From positions 1 through 52,850 of the forward strand of contig JAKJGY010000010.1 of assembly GCA_022704145.1 (NCBI GenBank): a stretch of DNA of 52,850 nt. Reading direction: 5' to 3'. This stretch comes from Verrucomicrobiota bacterium (GTDB lineage: Bacteria > Verrucomicrobiota > Kiritimatiellia > RFP12 > UBA1067). Below the pieces are notes generated by a model that had not been told where the DNA came from, did not search any database, and saw nothing but the letters and a program-made list of their open reading frames with translations. Below, piece after piece: positions 40,468-52,850 of this stretch; positions within the stretch are counted from its first letter, which is position 1, and the number at the start of each line of letters is the position of its first letter. A program made the translations under genes and the position numbers.

Positions 40468-43400
40468 ATGAGTGCGCGCTGGTCCGGTTTGCCCTTGGTG
40501 CTGATTCTGTTCTGGTGTGTCCCTGCGTCTCCTGCCGGGGCTGCGCATGTGCGGCTGTTCGTGCTTACGGGCCAGTCCAACTCGCTCGGCACCACGGCGG
40601 GCGGCGAGGCGGACCCCTCGCCCGGCTCGGATCCGGCCGACGCGCACGTGCGCTTCTTCTGGCACAATGTCGCCGATGCGACCACGTCGCTCGGCGACTC
40701 GGGCGGCGCCTTCACCAACCTCTGCGCGCAGCAGGGCGGCTATTACCCTGGCAGCGCCACGCACTGGGGGCCCGAGATCGCCTTCGGCCGCCGCCTCTAC
40801 CGTGCCGGCCTGCGTGATTTCGGCGTCGTCAAGGCCAGCCGCGGCGGCGGCGGCAACACCCACTGGTCCAAGGCCGACAACGGCCACATGTACGCGCTGG
40901 TCACCGGCACCGTCGCGCAGGCCGCGTCCGCGCTCGCGGCCAGCGGCCACAGCTTCGAGGTCTCGGGCCTGCTCTACCTGCAAGGCGAGAGCGACACCGC
41001 CGCCGAGGCCGCCGCCGCCTCGAACCGCCTCGCCGCGCTCGTCGCCAACCTGCGCGCCGACCTGCCGAACGCCGCCAGCCTGCGAACCGTCGTCGGCGGC
41101 ATCGCCGCGGCGGGCGCCACGCGCGACATCGTGCGCACCCAGCAGGCCGCGTTCGCGTCAGCCGACCCGACCGCCGCCGCCTTCAGCACCGTCGACCTTC
41201 AAAGCCAGCTCTACGACAGCCTGCACTTCGACAGGGCCGCCAAGCTCGAGGTCGGCGCGCGCTACGCCGACGCCTTCCTCTCCTCCGGTTTCGTGACCCC
41301 CCGCTACGGCCGCCTCGTCTTCGTCGGCGACTCCATCACCCAGGGCGGCAACGGCCGCCCCAGCTACCGCTTCCCGCTCTTCAGGCATCTGGCCACGAAC
41401 CGCGCCGACTTCACTTTCGCGGGCTCGGTCACCGGCGCCTACGCCTGGAGCGCGGTCTCCACGCCCGCCTGGTCCGGGCAGGCCTTCACCAACGCCCACG
41501 ACGGCCACTGGGGCTGGCGCGCAGGCTGGTCCTGCGGCCGCACACCGCTTCCGTCCGGCCGCTACAACGTGAACAACCTCGGCAACGGCACGCTCTCGAA
41601 CTGGACCGGGCTCGCCGCCTCCTATGTCACTGCCGATGCCGGCGCGCTCGCGTATGCCGGCGCGACCTACTCTCCCGATACCGCCGTCATCCTCATCGGC
41701 ATCAATGACCTCGGCGACGGCGTCGCGACCAACCAACTCCTCGCCGACGCCGCCAGCCTCGTGCGTACCCTGCAGACCGTCAACTCGAACGTCGCCGTAC
41801 ACGTCGCCTCGGTCACGCGCGTCGGTTCGGGCCACGCGCAGTACCTCACGCTCAACACCGCCGTCAACGCCTACAACGCCCAGCTCGCCCGCCTCGCGCC
41901 GACCTGGTCGACCGCCAGCTCGCCGGTGTTCTTCGCCGACGTCACGACCGGTTTCGACGCGGACGCCCTGACCTACGACAACGTCCACCCCAACGCCGCA
42001 GGCGAGGCGTTTCTCGCGGGGAGACTCGCCGCCGCCCTCGGCCTGCCGACGGTATCGACCGACGCCTCCGGCCTGCCGCAGAAGGACTCCTCCGCCTTCG
42101 TGAACCGTTTCAACGGCAGCGAGATCTGGGACGGCGCCTGGACGAACGGCTGGTTCCAGAACGGCACGGCGACACGCGCGCTGGAGAACGGCGACGACCT
42201 CCGCTTCACCGCCTCCGGCTCGGGCGCCACCCTCTCCGGCGAAGGAGAGGACGGCGTCGGCGGCGTCAACTGGTCCTCCGGCTACGGCCAGGACTGGACC
42301 CTCGAGGTGCGGCTGCGCGTGCGCGCGGCGCCCAACGGTGTCGCCCTCTGGGCCGGCGAGGGCGAGAACAAGCCGCTGACCTGCGTCACGATCTACAACG
42401 ACCGCACCACCAGCTCAGCCGGCCGTTTCACCAACACCGTCGCCAACAGCGACGGCCTCTACCACGCCTTCCGCGTGGCCTACCGCGCCGCGACCGACAC
42501 CTACCACGCCTGGCGCGACGGCGCGCCCCTCACCGCGCCCGACGGCGTCGCCGCCGACCTCGCCTCCAACGCCAACGCGGAGTGGCTCTTCATCGGAGAC
42601 TACACGGGTGCCGCCTTCGGCGACAGTTTCGACATCACTCTCGACTATGTGCGCTATGACCTCACCGGGGCCTTCGCGCCGCCGCCCGGGCCGTCGGACT
42701 CGACCGACGGCCCCTCGCTCTCGGACGTGTTCGTCAACGGCGACGGCCATTATCCCGCCTACCGCATCCCCGCCGTCCTGACCAGCTCGGCAGGGACGCT
42801 GCTCGCCTTCGCGGAAGGCCGCGCTTCGCTCTCCGACCACGCCGCCAACGACATCGTGCTCCGTCGGAGTCTCGACCACGGCCTCACCTGGGGGGCGCTC
42901 CAACTGTTGCACGACGACGGCACCAACTCGCTCAACAACCCCTGCGTGGTGCAGGACGCGCTCACCGGCCGGATCTTGCTCATGTACCAGCGCTACCCGT
43001 ACGGCTGCCACGAGAGCTGCGTCGTTCCCGGCTATACCGGCGCCAACATCTGCCGTAGCTTCCTGCTGTCCAGCGACGACGACGGCGCCACCTGGTCCGA
43101 GCCGCAGGAGATCACCGAACAGGTCAAGCCGCCCGCACCGGCCGATAGCGTGTGCAGCGGCCCCGGCATCGGTATCCAGCTCCGCCACCCCGGCGCGGAC
43201 GGCATCCCCGGCACGGCGGACGACCGCGCCGGACGGCTCGTCATGCCGTTCAACCACGGCGAGGCCGGCTCCGTCTGGCGCGTCTACGCGGTCTTCAGCG
43301 ACGACCATGGCGTCACCTGGTCCTACGGCGCGATCGCGCCCGCAGGCGCGGAGGCCGGTTACGGCAACGAGGTCCAGATGGTCGAGCTGTCGGACGGCCG

Positions 43401-45237
43401 CGTGCTGCTCAACGCCCGCAACCAGGGCGGACTCAAGTACCGCAAGGTCGCCACGAGCGCCGACGGCGGCGCCACCTGGTCGCCGCTCGCGGATGACACC
43501 GAGCTGATCGAGCCCACCTGCTGCGCCTCGGTACTTCGACTCACCGACCCGCTCGACGGCCAGGCCAACCGCCTCCTCTACGCCGGGCCGTACTCGCAGT
43601 CGTCGCGCGTCAACGGCCGCGTCTGGCTCAGCGCCGACGACGGCGGCACCTGGCCGACCCACCGCGAGGTCTACACCGGCTCCTACGCCTACAGCATCCT
43701 GACCGCCCTCGCGGACGGCCGCGTCGGCGTGCTCTTCGAACGCGACAACTACGCCAAGATCAGCTTCTCGCGCGTGCCGCTCGCCTGGCTCACGTACGGC
43801 ACGGACACCTTCACGGGCGGCTACCCGCGCGTCACCGTGCTGGGCGGGCCGACGTCGGTCACGCCCACTTCCGCCGTGCTACGCGCCACACTGACCGCGA
43901 CCGGCACGGCGGCGACCGCCGTCTCGTTCTACTGGGGCCCCTCCGACGGCGGCACGAACACCGCCGCGTGGGCCCACGCCAGCGCGCCAGCCGCCGTCAC
44001 GGCCAGCCTGCCTGCGGCTTGCGAATACGGCGTGACGGGGCTTACGCCCGGCGCGACGCTCTTCTACCGCGCCCACGCCGAGAACGTGCATGGCGCGGTC
44101 TGGAGCGAGCGGATGGTCTTCCAGACCGGCGACGGCGACGGTATCACCGCCTCCAACGGCGCGGGCGCCACAGGCGTCGGCGTGGGCGGCGCCACGCTCA
44201 GCGGCGGCGCCGACGAGGCGGGCGACGTGCGCCTCTACTTCGGCGCCTCCGACGGCGGCACCGACTCCACCGCCTGGGACACCTACAGTGATCATGTCCT
44301 GCCCGCGCCAGGCGCCGTCTCCCACACTGTGACAGGCCTGCTTTTCGGCGTGCGCTACACCTACCGCACCTATGCGTCCAACGCGCACGGCGCGGACTGG
44401 GCCGACGCGACCGCCACCTTCACGACCGCCCGTGCGCCGCTCACCAGCGCGCAGCCGCTCAGCAACAACTACGGCAACTACGCGGGCCAGAGCGTCCGCT
44501 TCGCCGACCTCTCGGCCGGCGTCACCCGCAACCCGTCCGCGCCGCCGCCGCGCGTCAACCTGACGGCCTTCTCCCTCTGGCGGCAGGCGGGCGATAACGG
44601 CACCACCGGCCCGCTCTATCTCAACGTCTACACCGGCAAGGTCTGGAGCAGCCACTTTGTCGGCAGCTCGACCAACGCCCTCGACTTCCGTGCGCTGACG
44701 GACGGACAGAAGGGCACCTGGCTGTTCGACCGCCTGCCGCTCGACAGCGCCGGTCTCACCTGGTTCATAGCCTCCAGCAACGCCGTGCCCGGCGGCATCG
44801 CCACCGTCCGCATCCGCGTGCAGGGCGGCGACCCCGCCGCGGGCGAGCTGAAGGACACCGCAGGCAACACCGCCAGCGCCGGTTTCGACGCGCGCTACGA
44901 GGCGGTCGCCGAGCTGCCTGCCGCGCTCGCGGCCGCGCCCGCCGCAGGCGTGGCCGGCCGCGCGGCCACGCTGCGCGGGACCCTGACGGGCCTCGGCGCG
45001 GTCTACCACGCGGTCGCCTGCTGGGGGCCTGCCGACGAAAGCGGCGTCTGGACAGGCAGCGCCTACGCTGGCTGCCACACGAACGCGTCCGGCCTCGCGC
45101 TCTCGGTCCGCGCCGAGGACCTCCAGCCCGACCGCGCCTACCGCTTCGCGTGGCGCGCCACCAACGCCGTCCATGAGCTGTGGTCAACGGCGGCCCTCTT
45201 TGAGACCCAGAGCGGCACCCGCCTCATGGTGCGGTGA
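40468..45237 (+). CDS. giant secreted sialoglycan enzyme: two SGNH esterases, LamG-like, sialidase and Fn3-like domains
   Basis: A 1589-residue exported protein. After a signal peptide (1-25) residues 26-275 form a sialate O-acetylesterase-type SGNH domain: FVLTGQSNSLG (Ser), YLQGESDT and DSLHFDRAA (His). Residues 280-525 are a second, GDSL-type SGNH esterase with VFVGDSITQGG, IGINDLGDG and NVHPNAAG. A LamG-like region follows (540-750). Residues 755-1110 are a GH33-type sialidase: YRIPAVL with the first Arg, AEGRASLSDHAANDIVLRRS, five Asp boxes (SLDHGLTW, SDDDGATW, SDDHGVTW, SADGGATW, SADDGGTW) and EVQMVELSDGRVLLNARNQG. Two Fn3-like repeats and a final beta domain end in GTRLMVR. The order suggests deacetylation then release of O-acetylated sialic acids from mucins; that is inference. 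Confidence 0.9.
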   Translation: MSARWSGLPLVLILFWCVPASPAGAAHVRLFVLTGQSNSLGTTAGGEADPSPGSDPADAHVRFFWHNVADATTSLGDSGGAFTNLCAQQGGYYPGSATHWGPEIAFGRRLYRAGLRDFGVVKASRGGGGNTHWSKADNGHMYALVTGTVAQAASALAASGHSFEVSGLLYLQGESDTAAEAAAASNRLAALVANLRADLPNAASLRTVVGGIAAAGATRDIVRTQQAAFASADPTAAAFSTVDLQSQLYDSLHFDRAAKLEVGARYADAFLSSGFVTPRYGRLVFVGDSITQGGNGRPSYRFPLFRHLATNRADFTFAGSVTGAYAWSAVSTPAWSGQAFTNAHDGHWGWRAGWSCGRTPLPSGRYNVNNLGNGTLSNWTGLAASYVTADAGALAYAGATYSPDTAVILIGINDLGDGVATNQLLADAASLVRTLQTVNSNVAVHVASVTRVGSGHAQYLTLNTAVNAYNAQLARLAPTWSTASSPVFFADVTTGFDADALTYDNVHPNAAGEAFLAGRLAAALGLPTVSTDASGLPQKDSSAFVNRFNGSEIWDGAWTNGWFQNGTATRALENGDDLRFTASGSGATLSGEGEDGVGGVNWSSGYGQDWTLEVRLRVRAAPNGVALWAGEGENKPLTCVTIYNDRTTSSAGRFTNTVANSDGLYHAFRVAYRAATDTYHAWRDGAPLTAPDGVAADLASNANAEWLFIGDYTGAAFGDSFDITLDYVRYDLTGAFAPPPGPSDSTDGPSLSDVFVNGDGHYPAYRIPAVLTSSAGTLLAFAEGRASLSDHAANDIVLRRSLDHGLTWGALQLLHDDGTNSLNNPCVVQDALTGRILLMYQRYPYGCHESCVVPGYTGANICRSFLLSSDDDGATWSEPQEITEQVKPPAPADSVCSGPGIGIQLRHPGADGIPGTADDRAGRLVMPFNHGEAGSVWRVYAVFSDDHGVTWSYGAIAPAGAEAGYGNEVQMVELSDGRVLLNARNQGGLKYRKVATSADGGATWSPLADDTELIEPTCCASVLRLTDPLDGQANRLLYAGPYSQSSRVNGRVWLSADDGGTWPTHREVYTGSYAYSILTALADGRVGVLFERDNYAKISFSRVPLAWLTYGTDTFTGGYPRVTVLGGPTSVTPTSAVLRATLTATGTAATAVSFYWGPSDGGTNTAAWAHASAPAAVTASLPAACEYGVTGLTPGATLFYRAHAENVHGAVWSERMVFQTGDGDGITASNGAGATGVGVGGATLSGGADEAGDVRLYFGASDGGTDSTAWDTYSDHVLPAPGAVSHTVTGLLFGVRYTYRTYASNAHGADWADATATFTTARAPLTSAQPLSNNYGNYAGQSVRFADLSAGVTRNPSAPPPRVNLTAFSLWRQAGDNGTTGPLYLNVYTGKVWSSHFVGSSTNALDFRALTDGQKGTWLFDRLPLDSAGLTWFIASSNAVPGGIATVRIRVQGGDPAAGELKDTAGNTASAGFDARYEAVAELPAALAAAPAAGVAGRAATLRGTLTGLGAVYHAVACWGPADESGVWTGSAYAGCHTNASGLALSVRAEDLQPDRAYRFAWRATNAVHELWSTAALFETQSGTRLMVR

Positions 45238-45310
45238 CCGCCAGCCTCGCCGACCCCAAGCGGAGCACCCGAACCCTAACGCCGGTCTATTCGGTGGCAG
45301 GCGTCGGGCG

Positions 45311-45338
45311 GTTTTGATACATTCGTGACAATCAAAAC
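45311..45338. promoter_or_regulatory. 8-bp perfect inverted repeat before the defence locus
   Basis: GTTTTGAT (45311-45318) and ATCAAAAC (45331-45338) are exact inverted halves with a 12-base spacer, 44 bases before the first ATG. The local bases are A+T-rich in a GC-rich window, as for a promoter with an operator. It may be the binding site of a controller such as the AlbA/winged-helix protein in the locus. Confidence 0.5.
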
Positions 45339-45381
45339 AAAACGCATTGAGCGTTGAGTTCGCGGCTTTACGGAGCAGTAA

Positions 45382-48300
45382 ATGGCTGAGGTCGAGCGAA
45401 AGCGGTCGGTACAAGACATCCTCACGGACATGCGCGGCTTGGACGGCCTAAAACGCCTGTTCTGGCATGAGCTGAACTACGAGCGCGAGAACAAGCCGCT
45501 CAGCACGCGTCAATGGCCGGAGAGCGCGAAAGGTTGCCTAACGGAAGATCCGGTCCTGTTCGCCAGCGGCGGTGAGGATAACGCCTTCCACGTGGTGTAT
45601 TGCAGGTTGGCGTCGGTAGAGTTGAAACGCGGTTGTCAACGCCCCATCGTCGATCAACTGTTGCGCGATCATCCCTACGCCCTGTTCGTTTTCTCAAATA
45701 AGGCGCAGACGGCTTGGCACTTCCTGAATGTCAAGTATGACGAGCAAGCCGAGAAACGCCGCCTGGTGCGCAGGATTGCCGTACGCCCCGGCGACGGACT
45801 CCGGACGGCGGCTGAACGGCTGGCGTTGCTGGACAGGTCGGACAAGGCTGACACGTCCGACAGCCCGCTGGCGATCCAGCAGCGTCACGACGAAGCCTTC
45901 GATGTCGAGAAGGTCACCAAGGACTTTTATCGGGACATTGCCAACTGGTATTTCTGGGCGCTCAAACATTCCTCGTTTCCCGAGGGTGCTCGGAAGGAGG
46001 ATGACGGTCTCGATCACATCAGCGTCATCCGGCTCATCACGCGGCTGATCTTCTGTTGGTTCATCCGCGAGAAAGGCCTGATTCCGGATGCGTTGTTCGA
46101 GCGGCGGCGGCTGGCGGAATGGCTCGACGGCTTCGCGCCGGACACGCCCGCTGACACGGCATCGGTGTTTTACCGCGCGATCCTCCAGAATCTCTTCTTT
46201 GCCACGCTGAACACGGAGATGGATAAGCGCGACTGGCGGCGTGAAGGCCAGAACCTCATGGCGCATAACCTCTACCGGCACAAGGCGTGCTTCCGCGATC
46301 CGAAGTCGGCGCTGGCGCTGTTCAAAGACATCCCGTTCCTGAATGGCGGTTTGTTCGAATGTCTGGACAGGGACTTTGGCGAGGGTGCCAAGCCTCGCTA
46401 TCTGCGGATCGACGGATTCTCCGATCGTGCCGACAGCCAGCCGACCGTACCGGATTACCTTTTCTTCGGCCCGGAGCAGGACGTGGACCTGAGTGCGGAT
46501 TACGGGGATAAGAAATTCAAGAAAGTGCGGGTCCGCGGGTTGATCGACACGCTGAGCCGCTACAAGTTCACCATCGAGGAGAACACGCCTTTCGACCAGG
46601 AGGTCGCCCTCGATCCGGAGATGAGCGGCAAGGTGTTCGAGAACCTGCTGGCGGCCTACAACCCCGAGACCGGCACCACGGCGCGCAAGGCCACCGGCTC
46701 GTTCTACACACCGCGTGAAATCGTGGACTACATGGTGGATGAAGCGCTGGCGGTGTATTTGAAGGGCAAGCTTGAACCGCAAACACTCGCCAATGAACGC
46801 GAAGCTGGCGGGCAGGCGACTTCCGTGTCGGCCAAAAGCAAGACGGCTGCGCCTGAGCGCGTGACAATCGAAAACGAGTCACGCATTCGCGCGTTGCTGG
46901 CCTATGACGAGAGTCTGCCCGAGTTCAGCGAAGCCGAGACCGAGCGTTTGCTTGACGCCATCGACAACCTCAAAGCCTTGGATCCGGCCGTGGGATCGGG
47001 CGCGTTCCCGATGGGACTCTTGCACAAGCTGGTGCACGCGCTCGGCAAACTCGACCCGGACAACGAAAAGTGGAAGGCCAAGCAGATCGCCAAGCTTGAT
47101 GACGCGGTCATGCGCGAAGAGGCGGAGCGGATTTTCCGCGACAACACCGACAACTACGGCCGCAAGCTCTTCCTGATCGAGAACTGCATCTACGGCGTGG
47201 ACATTCAGCCGATCGCGGTACAGATCGCCAAGATGCGGTTCTTCATCTCGCTCATCGTGGATCAGAAGATCAACCCAGCCGCACCGAATCGCGGCATCCG
47301 AGCCCTGCCGAATCTGGAGACCAAGTTCGTCGCCGCCAATACGCTGATCGGCATTGAGAAGAAGGAAGTGCAGGGAGACTTGCTGACCGAAGATGCGGCG
47401 GCCCACCAGAAGCTGAGAGAGCTGCGCAAGCGTCTGACGGATGTGCGCCACCGTCATTTCACGGCCCGTACGACGGCCAGCAAGGCCAAGTGCCGCGAGC
47501 AAGACCGCGCCTTGCGGGCGGACATGTCCACCCTGCTTGGGGGCGCCGGGCTGTCCGCGGCCTGGTCCCGTCAACTCGCCGCCTGGGACCCTTATGACCA
47601 GAATGCGGCGTCCCCTTTCTTCGATCCTGAATGGATGTTCGGCGTACGGGACGGCTTCGACGTGGTGATCGGTAATCCGCCGTATGGCAGGATACTGGCA
47701 GAGAAAGTTCAGACACAACTGAGTCACAATTACCCGGCCTTTGGCGCCACGAAGGACGCATATGTGGCTTTCATGTTAATCGGTCTCGGCTTGCTGAAGG
47801 ACTGTGGTTGTGAATCCTATATTGTACCCTCGGCTTGGCTGGGTGGTCCGGCTTATCATTTGCTACGTGAAGATATGTTACACCAGACATTTTGGCAGGT
47901 GATTGCGCTTCCGTTTGACATGTTTTCAGCGGCATATGTCGATAACGTGGTATATGTCATCACAAAGGGAGCTCCAAAACAAGACCATCGAGTACGGGTC
48001 TTCTCGTATGCGAAAAGAAGTGAAATTGGTGAGTTTCGCCCCAGCCCTTGGCAGGAGATCATTCAATCTGCATGGGATAGCATGCCGGATCGGAAGCTTG
48101 TCTTGTCGGAGGAAGGGCTTCAACTACATCGAACCATCCGATCCATGTGTAAGAGGACGCTTGCAGATGTTGTGGAAATGCGTCGTGGAGTTCTGTTCGA
48201 CCCTTGTATCTTAACCGACCGAAAAACGGACCGTACTTCGTTTAGATACTTTGAAGGGGATGTCTATCGATATGAAATACGTGCGGCTATGCCTCACTGG

Positions 48301-48789
48301 GTAGAACTTGGCCTGAAGATGAAAGAGTATCCCAAGGAAGACAAATGGTTCAAGGGTGATCGGATATTACTCAGACGTTTAGTCAATCGCAGGCAACGCC
48401 TGATGGCCACATGTGTAGAGGAGTCATTTATCACGAACAAAAATCTCTATACAGTTCTTGCCAAGACAGGTGATATGCCACTTAAGTGTGTTTTAGCATT
48501 TTTAAACAGTGCCCTCTTTTCCCGTCTCTACATCGATTCTGTTAGCCAAGCAAACAAAGACGATTTTCCACAAGTGACCATCACTGATCTCCTCGGTTTG
48601 CCTTTTCCACATAAGGTTTCAGAGCGATCAAAGGACCAACTAACGGTTCTCGTCACCCGCATTCTCGCCGCGAAGGCCTCTGATCCGGCGGCGGACACGT
48701 CTGCGCTGGAGCGGGAGGTCGACGAGATCGTGTACCGGCTGTACGGGCTGACGGAAGAGGAGGTCCGGATTGTGGAGGGCGGAAAGTGA
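45382..48789 (+). CDS. Eco57I-class adenine methyltransferase / restriction-modification protein
   Basis: A 1135-residue cytoplasmic enzyme of the Eco57I (type IIG-like) group that N6-methylates adenine. Residues 1-400 include LKRLFWHELNYERENKPLS, a known opening of these proteins; a nuclease motif is not obvious there. The methylase core has GSFYTPREIVDYMV, motif I DPAVGSGAFPMGLL (about 535) and motif IV NPPYG (about 767), which binds the adenine. The C-terminal 330 residues are a target-recognition region with clearly higher A+T (47800-48650). A four-unit Ser-Asp-like repeat lies at 45829-45864. The start follows TTACGGAGCAGTA. The stop overlaps the next small ORF (GTGA). DNA specificity cannot be read. 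Confidence 0.88.
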   Translation: MAEVERKRSVQDILTDMRGLDGLKRLFWHELNYERENKPLSTRQWPESAKGCLTEDPVLFASGGEDNAFHVVYCRLASVELKRGCQRPIVDQLLRDHPYALFVFSNKAQTAWHFLNVKYDEQAEKRRLVRRIAVRPGDGLRTAAERLALLDRSDKADTSDSPLAIQQRHDEAFDVEKVTKDFYRDIANWYFWALKHSSFPEGARKEDDGLDHISVIRLITRLIFCWFIREKGLIPDALFERRRLAEWLDGFAPDTPADTASVFYRAILQNLFFATLNTEMDKRDWRREGQNLMAHNLYRHKACFRDPKSALALFKDIPFLNGGLFECLDRDFGEGAKPRYLRIDGFSDRADSQPTVPDYLFFGPEQDVDLSADYGDKKFKKVRVRGLIDTLSRYKFTIEENTPFDQEVALDPEMSGKVFENLLAAYNPETGTTARKATGSFYTPREIVDYMVDEALAVYLKGKLEPQTLANEREAGGQATSVSAKSKTAAPERVTIENESRIRALLAYDESLPEFSEAETERLLDAIDNLKALDPAVGSGAFPMGLLHKLVHALGKLDPDNEKWKAKQIAKLDDAVMREEAERIFRDNTDNYGRKLFLIENCIYGVDIQPIAVQIAKMRFFISLIVDQKINPAAPNRGIRALPNLETKFVAANTLIGIEKKEVQGDLLTEDAAAHQKLRELRKRLTDVRHRHFTARTTASKAKCREQDRALRADMSTLLGGAGLSAAWSRQLAAWDPYDQNAASPFFDPEWMFGVRDGFDVVIGNPPYGRILAEKVQTQLSHNYPAFGATKDAYVAFMLIGLGLLKDCGCESYIVPSAWLGGPAYHLLREDMLHQTFWQVIALPFDMFSAAYVDNVVYVITKGAPKQDHRVRVFSYAKRSEIGEFRPSPWQEIIQSAWDSMPDRKLVLSEEGLQLHRTIRSMCKRTLADVVEMRRGVLFDPCILTDRKTDRTSFRYFEGDVYRYEIRAAMPHWVELGLKMKEYPKEDKWFKGDRILLRRLVNRRQRLMATCVEESFITNKNLYTVLAKTGDMPLKCVLAFLNSALFSRLYIDSVSQANKDDFPQVTITDLLGLPFPHKVSERSKDQLTVLVTRILAAKASDPAADTSALEREVDEIVYRLYGLTEEEVRIVEGGK
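45829..45864 (+). repeat. 9-bp Ser-Asp-type repeat inside the methyltransferase gene (4 imperfect units)
   Basis: Units of the form TCGGACAAG encode LDR SDK ADT SDS within an otherwise ordinary N-terminal region. The same 9-bp pattern appears in the four-helix-bundle gene at 48890-48970 and 49316-49378. Confidence 0.5.
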
Positions 48790-48884
48790 GTGCGGCCTTA
48801 CGCGGGATGCTCTTCGATCTCAAGTCGCTGGATGTGGTGCGGGTGATCGAGGAGGCGGGCGAGGAGAAGGAGAGAGAGCCATGA
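48786..48884 (+). CDS. 32-residue small ORF coupled on both sides
   Basis: Begins with GTG at 48786, overlapping the methyltransferase stop as GTGA, and ends TGA at 48882-48884, overlapping the next gene start as ATGA. The product is Met/Val-SAALRGMLFDLKSLDVVRVI followed by an acidic tail EEAGEEKEREP; the first 20 residues form an amphipathic helix. It has no match I know. Precise overlaps on both sides are the signature of translational coupling and make an accidental frame less likely. It may be a small regulator or assembly peptide of the methylase; that is guesswork. Its ribosome site would be inside the methyltransferase end (GGAGGTCC, 48760-48767, spacing about 18, so weak). Confidence 0.45.
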   Translation: MSAALRGMLFDLKSLDVVRVIEEAGEEKEREP

Positions 48885-49534
48885 GCATGTCAGACGGGTC
48901 GGACAGGTCGGACGGGTCGGACAGGTCAGACGGGTCGGACAGGTCGGACAGGTCAGACAGGTCGGACGGGAGAGCCCGCCTGATCCCCAAGCACGGTGGC
49001 TACCGCAAGCTGCGCAGCTTCCAGACGGCGCAGCTCGTGTACGACGGCACGGTGGTGTTTTGCAACCGCTTCGTTGACCGCCGGTCGCGCACGCACGACC
49101 AGATGGTGCAGGCGGCGAGGTCCGGCGTGCAGAACATCGCGGAGGGCAGCGTGGCCTCGGCCACCTCCAAGAAGACCGAGCTCAAGCTCACGGGCGTGGC
49201 CAAGGCTAGCCTGGAGGAACTCCTGCTCGACTGCGAAGATTTTCTGCGCCAGCGCGGGCTGCGTCTCTGGCCCAAGGATGCGCCCGAGGCGCTGGCGGTC
49301 CGGGGCCGGTTCAGGTCGGACGTTTCAGACAAGTCGGACCTGTCAGACTCGTCAGACAAGTCTGACTGGTCGGACAACCCCGAAGTGGCCGCCAACACGC
49401 TCATCTGCCTGATCCATCAGGCGACCTACCTGTTGCGCCGCCAGATGGAGAATCTGGAGCGGCAGTTCCTGAGCGAGGGCGGTTTCACGGAGAAGCTTTA
49501 TCGGATGCGGAGTGAGCAGCGGAGAATGACATGA
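48881..49534 (+). CDS. four-helix-bundle suffix-domain protein with Ser-Asp repeats
   Basis: A 217-residue protein of the four-helix-bundle (23S rRNA intervening-sequence/suffix) family. After the start, residues 4-30 are a run of SDG/SDR triplets coded by nine 9-bp units. The bundle follows: LRSFQTAQLVYDGTVVFCNR, RTHDQMVQAARSGVQNIAEGS (family signature QMVxAARSGxQNIAEGS), LTGVAKASLEELLLDCEDFL and ANTLICLIHQATYLLRRQME. A second repeat run (SDVSDKSDLSDSSDKSDWSD) interrupts it at about residues 146-166, in a loop. GGAGAAGGAGAG precedes the start. Family members often sit in variable or defence loci; molecular function unknown. Stop overlaps the next start (ATGA). Confidence 0.85.
   Translation: MSMSDGSDRSDGSDRSDGSDRSDRSDRSDGRARLIPKHGGYRKLRSFQTAQLVYDGTVVFCNRFVDRRSRTHDQMVQAARSGVQNIAEGSVASATSKKTELKLTGVAKASLEELLLDCEDFLRQRGLRLWPKDAPEALAVRGRFRSDVSDKSDLSDSSDKSDWSDNPEVAANTLICLIHQATYLLRRQMENLERQFLSEGGFTEKLYRMRSEQRRMT
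48890..48970 (+). repeat. nine tandem 9-bp units (TCGGACAGG type)
   Basis: Nine in-frame units alternate TCAGACGGG, TCGGACAGG and TCGGACGGG, encoding (Ser-Asp-Gly/Arg)9 at the N-terminus of the four-helix-bundle protein. The unit length is a multiple of three, so gain or loss keeps the frame. Confidence 0.9.
49316..49378 (+). repeat. seven tandem 9-bp units, second array in the same gene
   Basis: Units TCGGACGTT, TCAGACAAG, TCGGACCTG, TCAGACTCG, TCAGACAAG, TCTGACTGG and TCGGACAAC encode seven Ser-Asp-X triplets in a loop between helices. The third position of each unit varies more than in the first array. Confidence 0.85.
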
Positions 49535-50352
49535 CCACAAAACGAAAAGCCAAGACGGCACAATCCGAATCGCTCCCGCAGCGGATGGAGCGACTGACGG
49601 GCTCTGTCCTAAAGCGCAGAGTGCGTGAGTCGGAGGATCTGGTCTTTGACTCTTGTGAGGCGGCGGACAGCGATGAAGAATTCGAACTGCTGACCAAGGC
49701 CGTCGAACTCGACCCGCGCAATGTGGACGCCTGGCTGGGGCTGATGCGCTTCGAGTCGCTTGAGGGAGACGAGGAGATCGCGTTTCTCCGCCGCCTGATC
49801 GCGTTGGGCGAGAAGAACCTCGGCAAGAAGGTGTTCAAGGAGGCAAAGGGCATCTTCTGGGGCCTTTTGGAAACGAGGCCCTACATGCGGGCGCGGGCGC
49901 GGCTGGCCTTCCGCCTCATGGAGACCGGGCGGCTGGAGGAGTCTGTGGCCGAACACGAGGGTATGCTCGAACTCAATCCCAACGACAACCAAGGCGTGCG
50001 TTACGGTCTCATGGCGCTCTATTTGGCGCTGAACAACCTCGACGGCTCGAGGCGTCTCTTCCGCGAGTATGATGAGCGGGAGCACTGCGCGATGTTCGCC
50101 TGGGCCTACGTCATGGACCGTTATTTGGCCGGTGACACCGGGGGCGCGATTCAGGCACTCGCGGCCGCGCGGAAGCAGAACGCGCACGCTGAGGCGTATT
50201 TTGCCGGGCTCAAGCGTTTGCCCAAGAAGATGCCGGGGTCGTACAGCATGGGGAGCCCTGAAGAGGCTGTGATCGCATGGGAAATCCTCAAGCCTGCATG
50301 GAAGAAGCATCCGGAGGCGCAGGCCTGGCTGATCGGCCAGTGTGCGCAGTGA
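49531..50352 (+). CDS. TPR-like protein of unknown function
   Basis: A 273-residue cytoplasmic protein made of helix pairs. LTKAVELDPRNVDAWLGLMRFESLEGD, ARARLAFRLMETGRLEESVAEHEGMLELNPNDNQ and RYGLMALYLALNNLDGSRRLFREYD are TPR-like repeats (residues about 55-85, 125-155, 158-185). The basic N-terminus (TTKRKAKTAQSE) and acidic stretch are not conserved motifs I know. It starts by ATGA overlap with the four-helix-bundle gene, so it is translated with it. TPR proteins commonly hold complexes together; here it might link the bundle protein and the AlbA-type regulator. That role is inference. Confidence 0.78.
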   Translation: MTTKRKAKTAQSESLPQRMERLTGSVLKRRVRESEDLVFDSCEAADSDEEFELLTKAVELDPRNVDAWLGLMRFESLEGDEEIAFLRRLIALGEKNLGKKVFKEAKGIFWGLLETRPYMRARARLAFRLMETGRLEESVAEHEGMLELNPNDNQGVRYGLMALYLALNNLDGSRRLFREYDEREHCAMFAWAYVMDRYLAGDTGGAIQALAAARKQNAHAEAYFAGLKRLPKKMPGSYSMGSPEEAVIAWEILKPAWKKHPEAQAWLIGQCAQ

Positions 50353-50365
50353 GGGTGAAACGTCT

Positions 50366-52114
50366 ATGAACGCTCCCGCACAAAACGATATCGCCCGATG
50401 GTCCGCAGCCGAAGAAGGACAATTCTTCGAGCGGAAGTCGGCACTCGACCGTTCGGGCGGCGCACGCAAGCCGCGAAAGGTGGCCGCTATCGCACATGAC
50501 ATCGCCGAGGCGCTGGCGGCTTTCGCCAATGCCGACGGCGGCGAGCTGGTGGTCGGCATCGAGGATGACGGCACGGTTTCGGGGGTGCCGCATGCCGACG
50601 CCAAGGTCCAGTTGCTGCTGGGCGTGCCGAAGGACCGGAATTACGTGGACCCGCCCATCCCCTGCCGCGCGCGAAAGATGAGCACGCCGGACGGCTTGAC
50701 GCTGCTGCACTTCGAAGCGGACTGGAGCCCGAACGTGCATCTGCTGGCGGACAGCCGGTGCCTGCGGCGGGTGCAGGATCAGAACGCGCCGTTCGACAAG
50801 GACCAGGTGCGCGCGCTGAAGGAGGCGAAGGCGCAGGGCCTGTTCGAGCGGAGTTTCCCGGCCGGGGCTCGGATGGAGGATCTGGACGAGGCGCTGCTGA
50901 CGCGCTTTGCTGAAGCGGCGGGTTCCGGCGCGGCGTACCGGGACGCGCTGACGCGCTTCCGGCTGACCGAGGGACGCAACGGGCACGCGGTGCCGACGCT
51001 GGCGGCGCTGCTGCTGTTCGGGCGTGACCCCGGGCGTTGGCACGAGCGGGCCGGGATTGACTTTGTGAGGTGGGACGGGAAGGAGCGCAAGACGGGCGCG
51101 GACCTCAACGTCTCCAAGCGGTTCCGGATTGAAGCGCCGCTGTCGGTGCTGCCGGACAGGGCGTTCGAGGCGATCAAGCCGTTCATCCGCGAGCGTCAGC
51201 AGCTCCATGACCTCTTTTTCATCGAAAAGCTCGAGTACCCGACCTTCGCCTGGCAGGAGGCGGTGGTCAACGCGATCGCGCACCGCGATTACAGCATCCG
51301 CGGCATGGGGATCGAGGTCTGGATGTTCGACGACCGCATGGAGGTCCGCAGTCCGGGCCTGCCGCCGGCGCCGGTGACGCTGGAGGCGTTGGCCTCGCGC
51401 GCGCCGATGCATTGCTCAAGGAATCCGATGATCGTGCGGGCGCTGACCGCGCTGGGGTATATGCGGGAGCTTGGGGAGGGCGTGCCGCGCATGTTCGACG
51501 AGATGGAGCGCGCGGGCTGTTATCCGCCCCGGTTCGACGCGATCGGCGGCGCGGTCGTCCAGTTGACCCTGCGCAACGAGCCGATCTATGACCGGGCGAC
51601 GCTGGAGTGGCTCAGGCAGTTCGCGGGGGTGGAGTTGTCGGGGGATCAGAAGCGCGTGCTGGCCTTCGCGCACGCCCACGGCGACCGGTTCACCAGCCGC
51701 GACTACCAGAAGGTCATTGAGACGGATCTCTATACGGCCTCGAACGCGATCAAGGACATGATCCGGAAGGGTGTTGCTGTCCTTCCAACGAAACGTGGAA
51801 AGGTCTATCAAACACGAGAACCGTTGCACGCGACTTCCGAAATGCCGGAGCTGCTGCTGGATCTGCTTCCCCGCTTGCAGAAGACGGGGGTGCTGCGAAA
51901 TCAGGATGTTCGCAAGATCTTCTCCAGCAACCGAATTGCAGCCGGACGTCTGTTGCGGTCTCTCGTTGATGCGGAGTGGCTTGAAGGAACCGGACGCCGA
52001 GGCGCTGGAGCCACATACCGGCCGGGAAAACGTTTATTGAATCAGTCTGCCATTGCACCGGAAGCACGGGAAACTGATGCAATGGGCCGGGAGACTGATG
52101 CAATGAAACGGTGA
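50366..52114 (+). CDS. AlbA/Schlafen-type ATP-binding transcriptional regulator
   Basis: A 582-residue protein. Residues 15-125 are an AlbA_2 (Schlafen AlbA) domain: GQFFERKSALD, AHDIAEALAAFANADGGELVVGIEDDG. Residues about 270-420 carry the HATPase_c_4-like region typical of these proteins (YPTFAWQEAVVNAIAHRDYS, GIEVWMFDDRMEVRSPG, LGEGVPRMFDEMERAG). The C-terminal part has winged-helix segments (FTSRDYQKVIETDLYTASNAIKDMI and LRNQDVRKIFSSNRIAAGRLL) that bind DNA. It ends in the 21-bp duplication at 52070-52111. GAGGGTG lies upstream of the ATG. Members act as regulators or as toxin-like nucleases in defence loci. The inverted repeat just downstream (52132-52187) may be its target. Confidence 0.85.
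   Translation: MNAPAQNDIARWSAAEEGQFFERKSALDRSGGARKPRKVAAIAHDIAEALAAFANADGGELVVGIEDDGTVSGVPHADAKVQLLLGVPKDRNYVDPPIPCRARKMSTPDGLTLLHFEADWSPNVHLLADSRCLRRVQDQNAPFDKDQVRALKEAKAQGLFERSFPAGARMEDLDEALLTRFAEAAGSGAAYRDALTRFRLTEGRNGHAVPTLAALLLFGRDPGRWHERAGIDFVRWDGKERKTGADLNVSKRFRIEAPLSVLPDRAFEAIKPFIRERQQLHDLFFIEKLEYPTFAWQEAVVNAIAHRDYSIRGMGIEVWMFDDRMEVRSPGLPPAPVTLEALASRAPMHCSRNPMIVRALTALGYMRELGEGVPRMFDEMERAGCYPPRFDAIGGAVVQLTLRNEPIYDRATLEWLRQFAGVELSGDQKRVLAFAHAHGDRFTSRDYQKVIETDLYTASNAIKDMIRKGVAVLPTKRGKVYQTREPLHATSEMPELLLDLLPRLQKTGVLRNQDVRKIFSSNRIAAGRLLRSLVDAEWLEGTGRRGAGATYRPGKRLLNQSAIAPEARETDAMGRETDAMKR
52070..52111 (+). repeat. 21-bp tandem duplication at the end of the AlbA-type gene
   Basis: Two adjacent 21-bp units (52070-52090 and 52091-52111) agree at 17 positions and encode ETDAMGR and ETDAMKR, the last residues before the stop. 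It lengthens the C-terminus without a frame change. Confidence 0.7.
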
Positions 52115-52131
52115 ATCAAATAGTGCCGTAC

Positions 52132-52205
52132 CGGCATTGTTGCACGCTCATACTTTCCTGGAAAACCGTGAGACTGCAACAATGCCGCCTGAGTGTGCAA
52201 CAATG
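52132..52205. promoter_or_regulatory. operator-like inverted repeat with a third half-site before the PLD gene
   Basis: CGGCATTGTTGCA (52132-52144) is perfectly repeated in inverted form as TGCAACAATGCCG (52175-52187), 30 bases apart. A further direct half-site TGCAACAATG (52196-52205) begins 21 bases after the second, two helical turns away, and ends 17 bases before the ATG at 52223. Confidence 0.6.
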
Positions 52206-52222
52206 AAGCCGAAGGACTAGCG

Positions 52223-52850
52223 ATGGCGACGCATGACATCATTGACAATCAGAACGAGAAGCTGGTCGATCACCTGAACAATATTCTGGGCACAACCGAG
52301 CGTGCCCGCTTTGCGGTCGGCTATCTGTTTCTCTCGGGGCTCACAAGCGTGGCAAAGCGGCTCCTGAACGTGAAGGAGCTGCGGCTCCTGATCGGCAATA
52401 CGACCAACAAAGAGACGGTCGAGCTGTTGGCCGAGGGGTACCGTCGGCTTGACCTGGCGGCCGAGGAGCTTGAGCGGCAGGCCTATCCGAAACGGACAGA
52501 GGCGGCGAAGATGGCCGATGAGACGGCGGGGAATCTCCGCAACGCCGTTGCGCGTGTTCACGAAAGGGCGGCTCCACGCCAAAGCGTACATCTGTGATTA
52601 CGGCCGGGTGTTCGATGGGGTCGGGCAAGAGATCCCGAGGCACGAAAAAGGGATCGCCGTGGTCGGCTCGTCCAACCTGACGCTGTCGGGGCTGACGCAC
52701 AACACGGAGTTGAACGTCGTGGTGCAGGGCAACCAGAACCACGCGGAGCTGGTCCGCTGGTTCGATGAGCTTTGGAAAGAGGGGCAGGATTTCGACGAGG
52801 CCTTGATGGCCGAGCTCAAGGCGTCCTGGGCGGGCGCGGAGGTCCGCCCG
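52223..52850 (+). pseudogene. start of a phospholipase D-domain gene (probable helicase partner), frameshifted, cut by window end
   Basis: The frame from ATG 52223 reads MATHDIIDNQNEKLVDHLNN and RFAVGYLFLSGL, the N-terminus of the PLD-like domain found on SNF2-type helicases in defence loci. It stops at 52597 after about 124 residues. From 52551 the next frame (+1) continues the same domain to the window end: FTKGRLHAKAYICDYG with HxK(x4)D, VVGSSNLTLSG (GSxN) and NTELNVVVQGNQNHAELVRWF. So the HKD motif lies out of frame with the start. The junction also seems to lack a short segment. Either a real inactivating deletion/frameshift or an assembly error; the helicase part, if any, lies past the window. 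GAAGGACT precedes the ATG. Confidence 0.7.

Follow-up and report, generated by a model that had tools for sequence, protein, structure and literature searches.

An intervening sequence (IVS) in the 23S rRNA of Coxiella burnetii carries an S23 open reading frame (ORF), tandem heptamers upstream of it and a 28-bp terminal stem, and RNase III cleaves this IVS in vitro (PMC4990558). The same paper considers production of the IVS protein improbable and describes both the origin and the function of the IVS as unclear. Here, we describe an S23-fold gene in a predicted defence operon of a Verrucomicrobiota bacterium (Kiritimatiellia; assembly GCA_022704145.1). The window, meaning the whole 52,850-nucleotide stretch analysed, is the entire contig JAKJGY010000010.1 (C34), which ends at position 52850. 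The gene in question (48881–49534, + strand) encodes a four-helix-bundle protein of 217 amino acids and is located between a DNA methyltransferase (MTase) gene and a tetratricopeptide-repeat (TPR) gene, not in a 23S rRNA gene. On balance, we somewhat favour the view that the locus is a restriction-type defence operon and that the bundle gene, located in an exchangeable slot, is an IVS-type insertion element that does not belong to the defence system itself.

Other described elements are related to this gene in one respect or another; they are cited here, as is the IVS, from partial texts of the sources. Two Xanthomonas genomes have been reported to contain 70 and 75 inverted pairs of heptameric repeats (PMC4692102), and the role of the Nostoc and Xanthomonas repeats is left open there. 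The family PF05635 has been likened to Avd, an accessory protein of diversity-generating retroelements (DGRs; PMC10053308). The bundle genes themselves are only listed among strain-specific genes in the part consulted of PMC8700078, and no publication was found for TIGR04258 by name or accession. A literature search over listings and text passages, which included little of the subscription literature, found nothing on array-bracketed S23 genes in defence operons.

The limits of the slot are given by the nearest relative, locus L064. The two DNAs are 92% identical up to position 48781, 8 bp short of the MTase gene end, and 88% identical from 49520, 11 bp upstream of the TPR gene, without similarity in between (48782–49519; no strand applies). 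The slot between MTase and TPR is exchangeable because the similarity stops and resumes at these positions. It is occupied by the four-helix bundle in the window, by an AIPR/AbiU gene in L064 and by two small genes in L069 that look, by eye, like a DUF4258/DUF2283 pair. The MTase of L070 is followed by an AAA_15/OLD-like ATPase.

The bundle protein scores above the cut-off of TIGR02436, has the S23 fold and carries in addition a TIGR04258 suffix. No PDB sequence matches its profile at E 1, and an Rfam scan of 45000–52850 gave no match. The gene contains two arrays of the 9-bp unit GTCNGACNN, which are absent from the original prediction. The first (48889–48970, +), N-terminal and in frame, includes exact three-unit matches and has the highest tandem-repeat score of the window (136, TRF). 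The second (49315–49375, +), located by exact unit matches, encodes the disordered loop that joins long helices three and four of the predicted structure (helices 97–124 and 167–199; pLDDT below 50 at residues 149–152 and 154–159).

These arrays are a recurrent feature of the window-type genes, here the best 80 of 580 loci, whose record titles point to many phyla. In 62 of the 80, the gene contains two or more GTCNGACNN units, compared with 15 such matches in 747,914 bp of flanks. The arrays are a feature of the DNA and not merely of the protein, because nearly all their codons are TCN or GAC, with a G ahead of the serine. In 81 window-type genes used for the codon test (68 with SDxSD), serine is encoded by TCN in 375 of 377 array codons versus 750 of 1260 elsewhere in the same genes, and aspartate by GAC in 330 of 360 versus 450 of 798. 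The base preceding serine is G in 331/359 cases in the arrays and in 364/1245 elsewhere. The N positions of the unit are variable among the window-type genes, and the unit number differs among close relatives. Other suffix genes have different 9-bp units, and L077 has a 10-bp unit. Of the arrays with a period that is a multiple of 9 bp (score of at least 50), 55 lie no more than 400 bp from the genes (69,786 bp in total), versus 13 in the other 593,390 bp of these loci.

Several features of individual bundle genes were recorded alongside. The bundle proteins P0030, P0058, P0066 and P0075 also carry a zf-C4_Topoisom domain (PF01396), located after the suffix in P0030. A DprA-like protein (Pfam, below cut-off) follows the suffix bundle gene at L078:11286-11732, and by eye the ORF after the bundle of L017 contains a stretch that resembles it. 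Two TIGR04258 matches (G139:C11:12297-12437 and G154:C12:18958-19098) lie within frames of more than 3600 residues and may be in-frame insertions.

The arrays of the window are predicted to pair with each other. In the RNA of 48860–49420 (+), the predicted structure string shows the first array in a stem with the second around the bundle-coding part of the gene (z −4.72; 0/100 shuffles as stable), which is the only part that they enclose. Inverted repeats with a score of at least 20 are found in 25/48 suffix-gene windows versus 4/140 controls, and in 20/80 window-type genes versus 1/231 controls. For 20 of 49 suffix genes, the best complementary partner is their own downstream half, where about one would be expected by chance. 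The units vary by locus, yet complementarity is kept, a pattern in the sequences that suggests selection for pairing; a single unit that spread in inverted orientation inside its locus could also produce this complementarity.

Bracketing by inverted repeats extends to S23 genes that lack the suffix. At a score of at least 18, a bracketing pair is present in 26 of 30 plain S23 genes, which are high-scoring matches in relatives, in 9 of 11 plasmid S23 genes (11 of 23 records, ten of the eleven cyanobacterial) and in 22 of 49 suffix genes, versus one of 300 random segments. At a score of at least 15, the count for plain S23 genes is 27/30. By eye, their arms are mostly 7–8-bp tandem units that vary by locus; some arms are not such repeats, for example in L322.

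Sites with and without the gene were also observed. In Nostoc ATCC 53789, locus L350 has the order array, S23 gene, array, and the ~90%-identical loci L355 and L356 are without gene or array. The same difference of an S23 unit separates L346 from L352 and L358, and L342 from L354, with some intergenic DNA lost. By eye, L353 has at the L346 site an array-bracketed insert without S23, and L357 has a nested array-bracketed insert inside the S23 unit. The suffix unit of the L112 type is present in three genomes (G050, G053, G027) and absent from seven (G026, G054, G064, G001, G040, G057, G033), in which the flanks lie close together; in G010, the site holds ~1.7 kb of other DNA. Both anchors were aligned in nine of eleven loci (three with the unit, six without), and G001 was placed by coordinates. 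At L112, homology stops ~25–30 bp ahead of the left array and resumes at the end of the right one. All these comparisons are unpolarised with regard to gain or loss. By eye, the right 9-bp array of L112 (8480-8620) seems to be in frame with the downstream gene and to take the place of its N-terminus relative to the unit-free sites.

The genes next to the bundle gene are often defence genes. Window-type genes adjoin type I restriction-modification (R-M) genes in 13/80 loci (clusters with a PADLOC-verified HsdS/HsdR representative), type I-C cas genes in 9/80 and an SNF2 helicase in 1/80; PADLOC was run on representatives only, the other members were assigned through transitive BLAST clusters, and single assignments may err. 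In the nine cas loci, a cas7c or cas3c-like gene is upstream, with cas4 downstream in seven. For 54 neighbours in relatives, 270 PADLOC families were matched at E 1e-10 versus 12 for 54 distal ORFs, counts that are exaggerated by overlapping models; the commonest model is found in 5/54 and 1/54, respectively. These neighbours are the adjacent genes of high-ranking TIGR04258 matches, mostly on the same strand and with three next-over genes added, and the distal ORFs are a random draw from 146. Pfam tallies also include non-defence neighbours, such as FGE-sulfatase, sigma-54 activators and amylases. On plasmids, the S23 gene is located in the order cas6-S23-cas4 (Anabaena sp. 90, Pseudanabaena galeata), cas10-S23-Cmr3 (Picosynechococcus) or nrdB-S23-nrdA, and beside a plasmid transfer gene. 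The bundle protein of the window has one plasmid match, directly flanked by a peptidase and a methionine sulfoxide reductase. A defence neighbourhood is favoured, yet other contexts occur too.

The operon around the slot was compared with 17 MTase regions from relatives, using the window proteins. A PLD-SNF2 helicase was found in 12 of them. Four of the other five are contigs of only 3.9–10.6 kb (L066, L068, L069, L071), and the contig of the fifth (L081) has a helicase match that was listed in a separate search. The AlbA gene is present in four regions (L064, L067, L070, L072), the TPR gene in two (L064, and L069 by DNA) and a bundle gene in four (L077, L078, L079 and, by a separate search, L080). 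The gene order of L064 is MTase (93% identical to that of the window), AIPR, TPR (88%), AAA_21, DUF4276, AlbA (74%) and PLD-SNF2. Its AIPR protein matches AbiU in PADLOC, and its helicase matches the PADLOC model 'HKD+Snf2' (C3a139) at E 9.5e-81, with residues 5–865 aligned to model positions 3–774 of 948. PLD and SNF2 are thus found in one protein beside an Eco57I-class MTase in the relatives, and the window gene spans two contigs and is frame-shifted. The restriction-like pairing of MTase and PLD helicase that had been proposed from the window is supported by the 12 neighbourhoods and the PADLOC match. MTase and PLD-SNF2 form a core with exchangeable cargo, which is a known style of defence locus, and AlbA joins it sometimes. 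The AAA_21 and DUF4276 pair between TPR and AlbA in L064 (8906-10785) matches HEC-01A/B.

In such an operon, the MTase would modify host DNA, and the PLD-SNF2 protein would unwind and cut unmodified DNA. The array stem of the bundle gene would be cut by RNase III in the transcript, by analogy with the Coxiella IVS in vitro (PMC4990558), and this cutting would let the element reside in operons at little cost. The S23-fold protein would bind the stem, and aid the spread of the element or control the expression of its neighbours. Excision by RNase III and binding of the stem are predictions, as is the way in which the element moves. By the same analogy, the bundle gene of the window is likely a defence-operon-resident relative of the IVS units. 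A wider reading, tentative and in our view somewhat short of an even chance, is that array-bracketed S23 genes constitute one widespread class of insertion elements in operons, chiefly those of defence systems. The rRNA IVSs would be its rRNA-resident members, many of the heptamers of Xanthomonas and cyanobacteria its footprints, and the suffix subclass would use 9-bp units for in-frame insertion.

The bundle protein is under purifying selection, with rates of 0.025–0.108 for nonsynonymous (dN) and 0.285–1.551 for synonymous substitutions (dS) in nine chosen close pairs. In a tree from which seven of the 80 proteins were removed for stops or broken frames, and from which the SD arrays were excised, the phyla are intermixed, and five changes are needed for the R-M context and four for the CRISPR context. 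The well supported branches force only two and one of these changes.

A less probable but serious explanation is that the bundle protein works as an accessory of defence operons, such as a regulator that binds nucleic acids, with the arrays as its autoregulatory binding sites. The gene lies between cas7 or cas3 and cas4 in 7/80 loci and beside cas7 in two more, adjoins genes of the HsdS/HsdR clusters across phyla, and is closely packed in the cas operons; the low dN/dS and the 270 versus 12 PADLOC families point in the same direction. Against such a role, the same gene family occurs between nrdB and nrdA, near plasmid transfer and near unrelated genes, sites exist with and without the unit, and the array units vary between copies, unlike fixed binding sites. 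The element and the accessory may also both be true at different stages. The original prediction, a genuine anti-phage system of six components, is consistent with the tight packing and the overlaps in the window. It is nevertheless very unlikely, and a fixed accessory module is not supported, as the same set was found in 0/17 regions and bundle, TPR and AlbA do not occur as a set in these regions, the slot is exchangeable, one of the six ORFs lacks support, and the bundle gene is found beside unrelated defence systems and ordinary genes.

Dispersed arrays bear on the insertion-element reading, for which the hairpins of G014 described below also count, and on a third explanation. Three-unit GTCNGAC arrays are present in 27/191 genomes and GGGGAC arrays in 24/191. 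In G014, ten sites, intergenic by eye, carry a hairpin of one unit, some with a weak first arm, and the bundle gene of this genome is flanked on both sides by a hairpin that is also dispersed in it. This observation speaks for a bundle protein that serves dispersed palindromic arrays as their cognate helper, in the way that TnpA-REP serves repetitive extragenic palindromic sequences (REPs); palindromes border the gene in REPtrons too (PMC8266576). We consider this improbable: family scans of the bundle protein gave neither HuH nor any other catalytic family, and in genomes with arrays, several bundle genes have a different unit or none. A genome-wide correlation of arrays and bundle genes was set aside as support, being too weak.

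The insertion-element reading has to face a number of observations that weigh against it. The strongest objection is that a working accessory fits the close integration of the protein, and the purifying selection on it, in cas and hsd operons. The low dN/dS points to a function for the protein, in contrast to the S23 ORF of Coxiella, which is decaying. The main weakness in applying this reading to the window itself is the position of the arrays inside the gene, a whole-gene inverted pair being found in only 2/80 window-type genes. Fewer than two units are present in 18/80 of these genes, and 5/9 CRISPR-resident copies are without the two-unit GTCNGACNN motif. At the site of the window, only a different occupant was found and no empty site, and family scans of the six ORFs revealed no transposase, reverse transcriptase or other mobility enzyme. 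Two of the six displayed gene-free sites (L362, L372) carry, by eye, a different short 9-bp array at a similar position, and may be remnants rather than virgin sites. By profile search, 19/20 dispersed GTCNGAC loci have no suffix-type bundle gene nearby, although one of the 19 (G123:C16) has a plain S23 gene ~1.5 kb away. Co-occurrence is weak, with TIGR04258 in 24/27 and 19/24 array-bearing genomes versus 128/191 overall. As for the footprint idea, the heptamers of Nostoc PCC 7120 form few inverted pairs and are absent from its plasmids, and heptamers are generally without mobile-element association in the text available to us (PMC4692102).

All ORFs of the original prediction are present on the + strand, with the families as named (Pfam and NCBIfam scans), and the overlaps GTGA (48786-48789), ATGA (48881-48884) and ATGA (49531-49534) were confirmed. 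The MTase (45382–48789, +; 1135 amino acids) is an Eco57I-class DNA adenine methyltransferase (Pfam Eco57I, 5e-25) with a TaqI-like specificity domain (TaqI_C, 6.6e-14), and matches the PADLOC type IIG model at 1.9e-64. The 32-residue ORF (48786–48884, +), formerly counted as a component, is probably a chance frame. It has no convincing homologue among the loci compared, and with a best match of only E 0.39, it was also dropped as a candidate conserved peptide. The TPR protein (49531–50352, +; 273 amino acids; TPR_19, 4.6e-11) has a 73% DNA match in L069. The AlbA/Schlafen-type ATP-binding protein (50366–52114, +; 582 amino acids; SLFN_AlbA_2, 1.4e-10; HATPase_c_4, 5.9e-20) is 71% identical to that of L070.

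The last gene is the 5' part of the PLD-SNF2 helicase gene (52223–52850, +; PLDc_2), frame-shifted near 52550 and cut by the contig end. The PLD family was correctly recognised from the sequence alone. The ORF as predicted was not confirmed: residue 1 of the L064 relative aligns at 52223 and not at 52193, and the frame is broken. About 80 bp are missing near 52550 compared with L064, which splits the homologous frame into 52223-52558 and 52545-52850. The gene is broken as assembled in this genome, with real decay or an assembly error near the contig end as possible causes. The downstream helicase that had been expected is impossible inside the window, which ends with C34. The helicase part is placed on contig C128 of the same genome because a match to residues 421–1115 of the L064 PLD-SNF2 helicase (97% identical; 94.7% DNA identity) starts there at base 3. 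Upstream of the operon, an ORF of 1589 residues (40468-45237) has, by eye only, the look of a secreted sialidase/esterase-type protein.

In comparison with known systems, the operon matches neither BREX nor DISARM, as had been stated before, and the scores lie far under the model cut-offs. The MTase reaches 48.3 bits with BREX-1 PglX (cut-off 500) and 45.4 with that of BREX-6 (cut-off 900), and the DISARM DrmC model gives 27.5 bits (cut-off 133). No PglZ, BrxC or BrxL was found among the ORFs scanned at the locus, and no DrmA or DrmB model was among the matches listed for the locus ORFs (for the MTase, 25 of 52 families). Compared with 'HKD+Snf2' (C3a139), the operons of the window and its relatives add AIPR/AbiU, HEC-01, TPR and AlbA modules, and the PLD gene of the window is broken. 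The DGR accessory protein Avd is counted among the closest known systems to the bundle protein, and the six ORFs contain no reverse transcriptase. If the same S23 unit does reside in CRISPR, R-M and other operons, the origin of the IVSs and the role of the heptamers become testable. For the discovery of defence systems, it would be a warning that a gene recurring beside many such systems may be a passenger element and not a component.

The bundle units resemble the REPtron (PMC8266576) in that, at least in G014, the gene is edged by palindromic repeats dispersed elsewhere; they differ by the lack of a HuH transposase and by short tandem units in place of single REPs. With the Xanthomonas and Nostoc heptamers (PMC4692102), they share the form of short tandem arrays, which there are G-rich, 7-bp and, in Xanthomonas, often in inverted pairs. 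The main text of that paper does not contain the term 'S23', and the link between heptamers and S23 is inferred here. The 23S rRNA IVS of Coxiella likewise combines an S23-fold gene, short tandem repeats by the gene and a complementary stem, which brackets many S23 genes outside rRNA but in the window encloses the bundle-coding part only. Unlike the IVS, the bundle units are located in protein operons, carry a suffix helix and, in the subfamily of the window, have their arrays inside the gene. Their arrays are 9-bp, those of plain S23 genes being mostly 7–8-bp by eye, and the unit differs per copy.

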